Part shown: piece by piece, positions 26,320 to 30,628 of the stretch
Layout: each line of letters opens with the position of its first letter
Numbering within the stretch: the stretch's first letter is position 1
Origin: an uncultured Bacteroidota bacterium
Lineage (GTDB): Bacteria > Bacteroidota > Bacteroidia > 2-12-FULL-35-15
NCBI GenBank assembly: GCA_903911435.1
Contig: CAIWDF010000014.1
Coordinates: 1 to 45,574, forward strand
Direction: 5' to 3'
DNA length: 45,574 nucleotides
Notes under the pieces: generated by a model
The model's database searches: none
Seen by the model: only the letters and a program-made list of their open reading frames with translations
What the model was told of the DNA's origin: nothing
Made by a program: the position numbers and the translations under genes

Positions 26320-27186
26320 TTAAAACACCATATATTCCTGCGGATTGATGGCATTGCCATTGTACCAAAGTTCGAAATGCAAATGAGGGCCAGTGGTTTG
26401 TTCGCCCGAATTGCCAATGATGGCAATCGGTTCGCCTGCTTTCACATAATCGCCAAGTTTTTTTAATAATACCGAATTGTGTTTGTACACCGATATTAAA
26501 TTGTTCGAATGTTGCACGGTGATGGTATATCCTGTTTCTGACGAAAACGTAGCTAATACTACTGTTCCATCCAATGTAGATTTAATAGGTTCGTTATCGG
26601 CAGCCACAATGTCGACACCAAAATGTTGTTCTTTGTAGCTGTAAGAGGCGGTAATTCTTCCTTTCACAGGGGTGAAGAAAAAGAAATTGCTTATTCCTGT
26701 TTTATTGGTTTCGGTGGCGTAGGCCAAACTATATTGGTCTTGCGACTCGATGTTTTTGCGTAAGGCTACTTCTTTAGATGATGGCGACATCTTAGCATTC
26801 ACCGGTTTGGTGCCTTTCTCAGGACGAGTTTGTGCACTATCGTTTTTGGATTCGCCTTTGAGCACCGAACTTATGTTTTGCATGTAAAGGTTTTGTTCGG
26901 AAATGGTTTGTTCGAGCGAGTCGGATTTTAAAGCTAGTTTTATCATCTCTCTTCGCACTCCCACATCGGCATAACCAGGTATGTACTCGCGAAGCGAAGT
27001 GAATGCAAGCATGGAAATAACTAAGATGGTGAACACAATGGTGACGGAGCCAATAAGAATAACTACGCCAAGTGGTGTGAGGCGCAACGTAAATTTTTCT
27101 TCGAACGTGTCGTCATTCATTATCGTCAAGCGATAACGGTTGCGGAGGCGTTCGATGAGTTTGCGTTTGTTTTTTTCTTCCGTCAT
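26320..27186 (-). CDS. Membrane-anchored M23-family peptidase
   Basis: This 288-aa protein has a cytoplasmic N-terminus, one membrane segment (about 36-58) and a short linker. A LytM/M23 domain occupies about 175-288 and has zinc motifs HFGVD and HLHFELW. It should cleave peptidoglycan cross-bridges or, if it acts like NlpD/EnvC types, regulate other hydrolases, but both zinc motifs look intact. It is first in the M23-dxr-rseP group. It is divergent from the sprE-like gene, beyond which a bactofilin is encoded. Bactofilins commonly work with M23 peptidases. Confidence 0.92.
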   Translation of the reverse strand: MTEEKNKRKLIERLRNRYRLTIMNDDTFEEKFTLRLTPLGVVILIGSVTIVFTILVISMLAFTSLREYIPGYADVGVRREMIKLALKSDSLEQTISEQNLYMQNISSVLKGESKNDSAQTRPEKGTKPVNAKMSPSSKEVALRKNIESQDQYSLAYATETNKTGISNFFFFTPVKGRITASYSYKEQHFGVDIVAADNEPIKSTLDGTVVLATFSSETGYTITVQHSNNLISVYKHNSVLLKKLGDYVKAGEPIAIIGNSGEQTTGPHLHFELWYNGNAINPQEYMVF

Positions 27187-27285: not shown

Positions 27286-27465
27286 GTTCAATTTGTGCAG
27301 TAGGCAATTTTTGTAATTGAAAATGAGATTATCGAAATCTACAGTGGCAATTTGTAGCTTAAAATGAACGACCCTCAAAATTCACCCTAATTTTCATTAT
27401 TCAAATATACTATATATTTAGGTATCATTTTAGGTGAGGGTGAAAAAATATCCCTTTCGTCAATA

Positions 27466-27645
27466 TGTGATCTAGATTTTCTGCCAAAATGGCGGTTTTT
27501 TGCAAATGCCTAATTAGGCAAGTGCCCAAAGTAACGTTTTTCCCCTGTTGCCTAATTAGACAACTGCCAAAAGTATCGTTTTTCCCCTGTTGCCTAATTA
27601 GACAAGTGCCCAAAGTAACGTTTTTCCGCATCTGCCTAATTAGGC
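27466..27645. repeat. Tandem 42-bp repeats carrying a 12-bp palindrome
   Basis: GCCTAATTAG starts at 27508, 27550, 27592 and 27634, an exact 42-bp period. The first and last copies have the perfect palindrome GCCTAATTAGGC, and the middle two read GCCTAATTAGAC. The 30 bp between palindromes are also conserved in the three full units (TGCC-AAAGTA-CGTTTTTCC). A degenerate partial unit precedes them at about 27466-27507, with its own palindrome ATCTAGAT and the shared TGCCAAAA. 42 bp is four helical turns, so the palindromes face the same side of the helix. Confidence 0.9.
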
Positions 27646-27689
27646 ATTTTTACTCATTCGGGCTTTTTTTCAATTTTAGATTCCCCGAT

Positions 27690-27853: not shown

Positions 27854-27861
27854 TATTTTTG
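27854..27861 (+). promoter_or_regulatory. -7 promoter element for the sprE-like gene
   Basis: TATTTTTG followed by C matches TAnnTTTG, 52 bp before the ATG. Confidence 0.5.
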
Positions 27862-27913: not shown

Positions 27914-30628
27914 ATGTATAATTTTAAGTACACAAAAAGTGGTAACCGATGGAAACTAGCGCAATATGCGAGTGGTTGGTTGCTTGCAGCTTTTTTTGTG
28001 CTATTGCTCGATGGTTGCAAAACCACCAAAAACAATTGGTATTATCGCGGTTGGCACAATATGAATGCGCGCTACAATGGGTATTATTACTCGCGCGAGA
28101 ACATGAAAGAAACCCTCAAGAAACTCGAAAAAGCCAAAAAAGACGATTATACCAAGATACTTCCCTTATTTGTTTACACCGACAACAAAGACTCGAAAAC
28201 CTATTATGCCGACTTCGACAAGAGCATTAAAAAGTCGTCAACCGTTATTCAGCGCCATTGCATCACCGACAAAAAGAAAAAGGAAATACCGGGAGCTTGC
28301 AAATGGATTGACGAAAATTACATGCTCATCGGACAGTCGCATTTCTACAAACGCGATTTGTTTTCGGCACTCGAGGTGTTTCAGTATGTCGATAAAATCT
28401 ATCTTAAAGACCCAAAAGCCATTTACCGAGCCAAGCTTTGGGAAATGCGCACCGACAACGAAATAGGAAGTTATTCCTTGTCCGAATCCATTATTGACGA
28501 TATACGCAATGCCAAAGATTTCCCAAAAACCATCGAGTTTCAGCAGCATTATGCCTTAGTCACCACCGATTTGTATATGAAAGAAGGCGATTATGCCGAT
28601 GCCATTCGCGATATAACAAAGGCCATTACCCTCACCAAAAAGAAAACCGAAAGAGCACGTTATACCTTTATTCTTGCTCAGCTTTACGAAAAGCTTGGCA
28701 ACAACAAAAATGCTTCCATGTACTACGGTATGGTGCCTCCTTTGCACCCCAATTACGATATGGAGTTTGCTGCCAAAATAAAACAAGCGGCCTTATTCGA
28801 TGCCGAAAATGGTGATGACAAAGAAATACGTAAAACCCTTACTCAATTGCTCAAGGACGATAAAAACATTGAGTACCGCGACCAGATTTATTATGCATTT
28901 GCCAACCTCGATTATAAGCAAAAGGATGTGCCACTTGCACTTGCCGATTTGACCAAGTCGATAAAAGCAAGCACTACCAACACCACTCAAAAGGCAATGT
29001 CGTATCTCAAACGAGGCGATATTTATTTCGATATGCCCGATTATAAACGAGCGGCTGCTTGTTACGATAGTACCATGTTGGTATTGCCAAAAGATTACCC
29101 CGACTATACTCTAATTGACGAAAAACGCAAAGCACTAGCATCACTTGTGATGAATCTGAAAGTGATAGAGCTTGAAGATAGTTTACAAACATTAGCTCGC
29201 TTGAGCGAAAAAGACCGCAACAAGTCCATCGACCAAATGATGGACCGAATGGAACAAGAAGAACGCGAAAAAGAAGAAGCCAAAAAACAAGCTGCTGCCA
29301 ATGCTGCTAGTGTAGTGCCAGCCGTTACCACCACAGCAGGTGCTAACAACGGAGCTTGGTATTTCTACAATCCGAATACAGTGAATTTGGGCGTTGCCGA
29401 TTTCAATAAAAAATGGGGAACTCGTAAGTTGGAAGACAATTGGTTTCGGGCCAATAAGGATGTGGTGCTTAGTCAAACCACCGCTGACGATACTGATGCC
29501 ACCGACTCTACCAATACCAAAGGAGCTGTTGCAAGTACCAAAGATTCGAAAAACAAAAAAGACAGGAATTATTACCTAAAGAAAGTGCCATTAACTCCTG
29601 AAGCCTTTGCACAGTCGGACATAAAAATAACGGATGCCTATTACAACGCAGGTACCATTTATAAGGAGCAAATTCTGAACAACAAGAAATCGATAGAAAC
29701 CTTAGAAGAGTTACTCAAGCGTTATCCCGAAAACAAGTACAAGCTATCGTGTTATTATCAGCTTTACCGTACCTATATGGCCATGGACAATCAGCCAAAA
29801 GCGGATTATTATAAAAACATTATCCTCAACGATTATGGCAATACGGAGTATGCACAGATTATAAAAGACCCTAAACATACCAAAGATTTGCTGGCAAGTA
29901 AAAGTGAAGTGGAGTTGTTTTACATTGGTACCTATTCGATGTACACAGCAGGCAATTATTCTGAAGCATTGGTTAATTGCAACAAGGCCGAATCAGATTT
30001 TGCAAAAAGCACCTATATGCCCAAATTTGCTTTCATCAAAGCCCTTTGCATAGGTCGTACACAAGACATCAATAGTTTCGAATCGGCTTTGGGGCAATTT
30101 GTGATTAAATACCCGAAAGATCCTTTAAAAGATAAAGCACAAGACATCTTGGATGCTATCAAGCGCCAACGCGAAGCTCCAAAAGTAGCTGCCAAACAAA
30201 TTTCGTCCGACACTTCCAAAAAATCGGTGGTGGCACCTGTTCAAGACACAGCCGCAGCACCTAAGTTCATCTTCCGCGAAGAAGGCGAATACTATTGGGT
30301 CATCATTGTCGACAACAACAAAGGGGATATCAACCGTTTCAAACAAAAATTATCAAACGCCAACTCCGAATCGTTCAGTACCTTAGATTTAAGCATCAAT
30401 AGCATATTCCTCGACCTTCAGCATCAATTGGTTTCCGTAAAAACATTTGATGGTCGTCAGTCGGCAATGAATTATTACGACTTCTTCAAAGCAAAACCAA
30501 CTGCTTTCAGCGATTTGATAAGTGGAACGTATCAGTATTTCGTCATTTCAGCCGAAAATTACACCACTTTCTACAGAGATAAGAATGTAGACGAGTACAA
30601 AGAATTTTTTACAGAAAATTATCAATAA
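27914..30628 (+). CDS. TPR lipoprotein of the SprE/PorW type (T9SS/gliding)
   Basis: This 904-aa protein has a long signal and lipobox LLDGC with Cys35. The family-typical NNWYYRGWHNMNARYNGYYY region follows directly, then many TPR-like helix pairs (about 110-460). After these come an Ala/Lys-rich coiled stretch (about 440-470) and a low-complexity linker, further TPR-like repeats (about 590-760) and a C-terminal alpha/beta domain. Length and layout match SprE/PorW, the outer-membrane lipoprotein thought to link the T9SS motor with other parts of the translocon. The three T9SS cargo genes in this window fit with this call. A gene symbol is withheld because paralogous TPR lipoproteins exist. 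Confidence 0.82.
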   Translation: MYNFKYTKSGNRWKLAQYASGWLLAAFFVLLLDGCKTTKNNWYYRGWHNMNARYNGYYYSRENMKETLKKLEKAKKDDYTKILPLFVYTDNKDSKTYYADFDKSIKKSSTVIQRHCITDKKKKEIPGACKWIDENYMLIGQSHFYKRDLFSALEVFQYVDKIYLKDPKAIYRAKLWEMRTDNEIGSYSLSESIIDDIRNAKDFPKTIEFQQHYALVTTDLYMKEGDYADAIRDITKAITLTKKKTERARYTFILAQLYEKLGNNKNASMYYGMVPPLHPNYDMEFAAKIKQAALFDAENGDDKEIRKTLTQLLKDDKNIEYRDQIYYAFANLDYKQKDVPLALADLTKSIKASTTNTTQKAMSYLKRGDIYFDMPDYKRAAACYDSTMLVLPKDYPDYTLIDEKRKALASLVMNLKVIELEDSLQTLARLSEKDRNKSIDQMMDRMEQEEREKEEAKKQAAANAASVVPAVTTTAGANNGAWYFYNPNTVNLGVADFNKKWGTRKLEDNWFRANKDVVLSQTTADDTDATDSTNTKGAVASTKDSKNKKDRNYYLKKVPLTPEAFAQSDIKITDAYYNAGTIYKEQILNNKKSIETLEELLKRYPENKYKLSCYYQLYRTYMAMDNQPKADYYKNIILNDYGNTEYAQIIKDPKHTKDLLASKSEVELFYIGTYSMYTAGNYSEALVNCNKAESDFAKSTYMPKFAFIKALCIGRTQDINSFESALGQFVIKYPKDPLKDKAQDILDAIKRQREAPKVAAKQISSDTSKKSVVAPVQDTAAAPKFIFREEGEYYWVIIVDNNKGDINRFKQKLSNANSESFSTLDLSINSIFLDLQHQLVSVKTFDGRQSAMNYYDFFKAKPTAFSDLISGTYQYFVISAENYTTFYRDKNVDEYKEFFTENYQ

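Follow-up and report, generated by a model that had tools for sequence, protein, structure and literature searches.

Bacterial minisatellites are usually regarded as accidents whose unit length is arbitrary. Short tandem intergenic units occur at many loci in filamentous cyanobacteria (LTRR/STRR) and in mycobacteria (MIRU-VNTR), in other phyla and with other units than those described here. Non-coding satellites dispersed within one genome are termed rare in the available text of a survey of 119 bacterial species (PMC6749651). That text describes satellites of Leptospira interrogans and Methanocella conradii that, like the family reported here, are long-unit, non-coding, and transposed within one genome, but they belong to other phyla, have other units, and come with no 21-bp quantum in the portion available. 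The closest known element, by description rather than by direct sequence comparison, is BrickBuilt of Porphyromonas gingivalis, which the accessible part of its report (PMC4596501) presents as an intergenic, species-restricted element of 19 copies with a leader, 23-nt units, and a tail. The likeness extends to MITE464/PgRS from the same source: all are species-restricted elements of Bacteroidota that combine leader, tandem units, and tail and are always intergenic. BrickBuilt also has dispersed copies with differing unit numbers and imperfect units, and PgRS units measure 41 nt.

Here we analyze a 45,574-bp stretch of DNA from an uncultured Bacteroidota bacterium (contig CAIWDF010000014.1, hereafter the window), which carries an array of palindromic 42-bp units. 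The array is probably one member of a species-specific minisatellite family that is non-coding and occupies five intergenic loci, all in this one genome. We rate the family as a bacterial intergenic minisatellite that is unusual in two respects, the contrast between its cores and its spacers and its membership in a clade-wide set of arrays built on a 21-bp quantum. It differs from BrickBuilt in unit length and number (42 bp at five loci here, 23-nt or 41-nt units and 19 copies there). The terminal inverted repeats of BrickBuilt match IS5-family elements and none were found here, and the available text of that report describes no locus-specific cores set against shared spacers.

The window array is rigid in period. 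In a pattern search of the window, GCCTAATTAG starts at 27508, 27550, 27592, and 27634, a spacing of exactly 42 bp, and TRF reports 27507–27643 with period 42, 3.3 copies, 88% matches, 0 indels, and a score of 218. The whole array spans 27506–27647 (this and all following array features on the forward strand) and consists of core 1 (27506–27521, ATGCCTAATTAGGCAA), spacer 1 (27522–27547, GTGCCCAAAGTAACGTTTTTCCCCTG, with identical copies at two sister loci that have different cores), core 2 (27548–27563, TTGCCTAATTAGACAA), spacer 2 (27564–27589, CTGCCAAAAGTATCGTTTTTCCCCTG, identical in sister locus C207), core 3 (27590–27605, the same letters as core 2), spacer 3 (27606–27631, GTGCCCAAAGTAACGTTTTTCCGCAT), and core 4 (27632–27647, CTGCCTAATTAGGCAT). 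The first and fourth cores contain the perfect palindromic 14-mer TGCCTAATTAGGCA, and the middle two read TGCCTAATTAGACA, with one mismatch. Thus the four copies, their exact period, the perfect outer palindromes, and the conserved spacers given in a preliminary description made from the sequence all hold, as does its equation of 42 bp with four helical turns (4 × 10.5 bp). Ahead of the array lies a leader (27461–27505, delimited by local alignment of left flanks) that includes a degenerate lead-in unit (27464–27505). This decayed fifth unit, also noted earlier, is real and is kept in sister loci, but the palindrome read in it (ATCTAGAT) is not conserved, as sister leaders have GGTTTAGG in its place. 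The tail (27648–27673) shares with all loci the T run after CAT and is otherwise weakly similar at the window locus. Across the 4.19-Mb genome and counting both strands, TGCCTAATTAG has 8 matches: the window array accounts for 6 and a sister array for the other 2 (one palindrome). The reversed control pattern has 0.

The array does not appear to encode protein. Cys-Leu-Ile-Arg can be read on both strands, as first described, and is a mere consequence of the palindrome. The two ORFs on the window array were rightly called spurious: neither matches Pfam, and no reading frame of the repeat units shows coding constraint. With stops in several frames and a synonymous share of at most 0.24, a protein-coding 14-residue repeat was rejected. 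Throughout, coding status was assigned from ORFs with a minimum of 100 codons instead of annotated genes. We also rejected a 21-bp sub-repeat within the 42-bp unit, since identity at lag 21 is 0.04–0.20, below background; the family is therefore not visibly a dimer of 21-mers, as several other 42-bp arrays are.

Searching the genome with the array recovered strong copies on contigs C99, C207, C86, C152, and C59, besides the window locus (C14). The copies on C99 and C59 are probably one locus split by the assembly, since C99 ends and C59 starts inside an array of the same core type, and this gives five intergenic loci. All are built alike: a leader and a degenerate unit come first, followed by cores of 16 bp (TTGY-N8-RCAA) with a 26-bp spacer (consensus CTGCCAAAAGTAACGTTTTTCTCGTG) between one core and the next. 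Every sister array whose end is known closes with a core and then CATTTTT. The copies are thus head-to-tail, imperfect, and outside genes, as in a minisatellite, and their short tandem units recur at several intergenic loci of one genome, as in BrickBuilt. A sequence model of the unit detected no convincing solitary units elsewhere in the genome, and its matches in 35 other members of the genus were at chance level. Nothing above chance was found for the array in 16 genomes of other families, and viral contigs gave no match at all. A species-wide collection, in which records of this or near genomes may be omitted, returned one single, chance-like match. In having several copies and none in relatives the family resembles the ordinary decaying satellite considered in the preliminary description, yet the period is 42 bp at every locus with no indel. 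A CRISPR array was rejected, as the spacers are not unique: cores and spacers alike reappear within an array and in other arrays.

The gene neighborhoods give little reason to read the array as a regulatory site. At the window locus the flanking genes are, as named at the outset, an M23 peptidase gene on the left (26320–27186, reverse strand; Pfam PF01551, E = 1.6e-27) and on the right the sprE-like gene, a porW/sprE type IX secretion lipoprotein gene (27914–30628, forward strand; NCBIfam NF052312, E = 3.3e-199). The divergent gap between them measures 727 bp in the window and 184–305 bp (median 197) in the 13 relatives with that gene pair, and the array is absent from the gap in 13/13. A TAnnTTTG −7 element precedes porW/sprE in the window (27854–27861, forward strand), 60 bp before the ATG and about 210 bp from the array, and the same motif stands 81–108 bp before the ATG of the orthologues in 13/13 relatives. 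Because these relatives have a short gap, no array, and a retained TAnnTTTG, the window array is extra DNA, situated about 210 bp ahead of an intact porW/sprE promoter element. The proposed operator for the divergent genes is therefore unsupported: the array is missing in the 13 relatives, the family adjoins unrelated genes at its four other loci, and its palindrome varies from locus to locus. An operator confined to a single locus is ruled out by the five loci. Origin-like iterons or a partition site, also proposed, are unlikely because the copies are scattered over five intergenic sites and no rep or par gene was recognised among the neighboring genes examined there.

A broader version of the operator reading fits some features of the family. 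A dimeric protein could bind TTGY…RCAA once per four turns, always on the same face of the DNA, as an operator or enhancer cluster, with the locus-specific inner bases tolerated or bound by different paralogues. The TTGY/RCAA ends and the dyad are retained in nearly all cores across loci, the 42-bp period never slips, and 3/5 loci lie between divergently transcribed genes. Against this, flanking genes differ at every locus and are unrelated, the inner core changes with the locus, the porW/sprE promoter persists without the array, and comparable unrelated arrays of the clade mostly lack a dyad, which reaches p ≤ 0.05 in 4/42 and was accordingly rejected as a general property of 21-bp arrays. 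We regard such a cluster as unlikely, and a regulatory effect of the array as a gene switch is unsupported.

The flanks of the five loci bear on how copies might have moved. Between 28 and 45 bp of the window leader recur at the four sister loci, and one pair of sisters has 132 bp in common. Left-flank local alignments of the window locus score 36–62 against shuffle maxima of 24–27, and the leader similarity of C207 to C86/C152 is at shuffle level. On the right, 40 bp are common to C86 and C59, and the window locus does not exceed shuffles against C59. A leader and partly common tail at dispersed intergenic sites, with the anatomy of BrickBuilt (PMC4596501), could mark a MITE-like element that carries the array as cargo and is mobilized in trans by a transposase, which would supply a dispersal route for the minisatellite rather than contradict it. 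However, the left flank aligned to the reverse-complemented right flank never scored above shuffles at the four loci tested, the shared flank length varies between loci, and none of the three Y1 transposase-like genes of the genome (on C262, C157, and C165) lies on a contig bearing units. A MITE-like origin is thus a tentative option that we rate well below the minisatellite reading; for want of terminal inverted repeats, the family is not filed as a MITE. REP/BIME elements with RAYT were rejected, as the units do not flank the Y1 genes, whose contigs carry none.

Cores and spacers of the minisatellite family have diverged in different ways. For the 29 units compared, the identity of cores averages 0.844 inside a locus and 0.699 between loci, a difference reached by 0/5000 permutations, whereas that of spacers is 0.857 inside and 0.852 between (p = 0.29). 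Five 26-bp spacers are identical to the letter at two or three loci that carry different cores. The cores of C86/C152 read TTGTAGGT|TTACGCAA and those of C207 TTGCGTAA|TTACGCAA, so that the C207 left half differs by 5 adjacent changes, every one complementary to the right half. Similarly, C99/C59 cores read TTGTCGGT|TTAGGCAA and window cores TTGCCTAA|TTAGGCAA (the middle two window units with GACAA), with 4 left-half changes, again every one complementary to the right half. In both C207 and the window the left half is thereby the reverse complement of a right half shared with sister loci. Furthermore, some units of C86 and C152 show a right-arm CG → TA change complementary to the left arm, one C86 core is inverted (TTGTGTAAACCTACAA), and 7/8 cores of C207 are palindromised alike. 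Judging by leader and sister loci rather than by an outgroup, we infer that the imperfect core is probably the older form and the perfect one derived, because GGTTTAGG is the form present in the leader.

Template switching between short inverted repeats is known to homogenize arms, invert interiors, and produce clustered multinucleotide changes (PMC8604942). Arm homogenization, inversion, and clustered multi-base changes are likewise seen in the cores; the published cases are isolated inverted repeats in yeast genes, whereas these are tandem arrays. The core pattern would thus seem to fit quasi-palindrome template switching rather than one conserved operator, and locus-specific rewriting of palindromes beside unchanged spacers may form a natural record of such events. 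Selection for perfect operators or for a better dyad would yield the same picture, and the like palindromes of 7/8 C207 cores need repeated events or spread between units. The palindromes could also serve as a structured RNA, with the array transcribed into hairpins that either sequester a protein or work as a terminator. Folding of the C14 and C207 arrays is much stronger than that of shuffled sequences (z −7.3 to −9.1), and core 4 of the window with the following T run resembles a weak terminator, but the C86 stretch tested, which has the other type of core, does not surpass shuffles on either strand (z +2.5 and +0.9), pair 5:12 is broken in 8/28 units and pair 4:13 in 3/28, and Rfam gives no match at its gathering threshold. 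We consider a structured RNA highly improbable.

The 42-bp family is one of many arrays with periods in multiples of 21 bp. In 535 kb of the same genome, TRF detected 36 non-coding arrays, 31 of which have a period of 21, 42, 63, 84, or 126 bp. The proportion is 24/28 in a 432-kb subset unselected for arrays, from which contigs fetched for holding the 42-bp family or a weak match to it were removed. Other multiples of three (15, 18, 24, 27, and 30 bp) are absent from the array list of this genome, as are the odd half-steps 31–32 and 52–53 bp, which leaves the pattern unexplained by either reading frame or simple helical phase. Apart from small families with two or three loci each, the arrays are mutually unrelated in sequence. 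Isolated two-copy repeats, of which there are very few, likewise favor 21 and 42 bp. The trait also follows relatedness in the sampled contigs from which array densities were taken: the six nearest relatives (PorW/SprE identity 65–81%) have 14 multiple-of-21 arrays of other sequences in 361 kb, the count is 2 in 900 kb for ten more distant genus members and 0 in 140 kb for three genomes from other families. Some arrays of relatives, unrelated in sequence, precede the same genes, for example porW/sprE in G014 (a 21/63-bp array of the TTCCTTCCATAGAAG type at about the same place, L183 7216–7380) and the M3 peptidase gene in G051; most orthologous sites examined in relatives carry no array. A literature search with most subscription journals outside its scope found no report of a 21-bp quantum.

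Arrays are concentrated at contig ends. With 12 masked ends excluded, 16/71 readable ends lie within a lag-21 or lag-42 array compared with 11/3000 interior windows; arrays thus sit at roughly a quarter of the readable ends examined and often cause the assembly to break. The window itself opens within another 42-bp repeat (AAAAAGTAATGCTAAGGAAAAAACTTTTCACATACAGAACAC; 1–62, second copy partial), and its contig was therefore broken at an array. Six short contigs of the genome (L119, L121, L130, L133, L151, L152) have N, either masked or withheld letters, at both ends. The crowding at ends, and the equality of the quantum with a common k-mer size, could point to an artefact of k = 21 assembly graphs. 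This we regard as exceedingly improbable, because the units are not perfect copies and, in assemblies made separately, the trait tracks relatedness: long-contig relatives (G051, G004) carry arrays and other genus genomes do not, and some arrays lie well inside contigs, that of the window 18 kb from the nearer end.

Because so many unrelated intergenic arrays have multiple-of-21-bp periods, a process common to the clade may set unit length. For the minisatellite family we propose that copies spread inside the genome together with their leader, and that unit number would change by slippage or unequal recombination. Replication template switching between inverted half-cores would keep, perfect, and sometimes flip the palindromes, rewriting cores and leaving spacers untouched; any effects on adjacent genes would be indirect. 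A more speculative idea, to which we give limited credence, is a clade-specific molecular ruler, an enzyme or DNA-binding protein spanning two helical turns, that creates or maintains 21-bp-multiple arrays of any sequence, with the cores of the 42-bp palindrome family re-edited locus by locus. Unrelated arrays of a single clade at multiples of 21 bp make the determinant of repeat length directly testable.

Elsewhere in the genome, in L115 (G000:C40; 239–622), 19-bp units (TTTTTTCGGGAAACGCTAC) turn at 406 into 21-bp units (CATCATTTTCCCATCCCGTTC), head to tail, and some of the 19-bp units have GAAAACGTTACTTTT in common with the reverse strand of the 42-bp family spacer. A second dispersed 21-bp-based family (GACATGTGGGGTGAAATTC) occurs at L142 10034–10265, L128 3778–3897, and G000:C150:1–119. 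Another 21-bp array family (GAGAATGTATGCCAACTTCAT) is present at two loci, L149 2721–2984 and G000:C215:8021–8279, with 85% identity over 259 bp.
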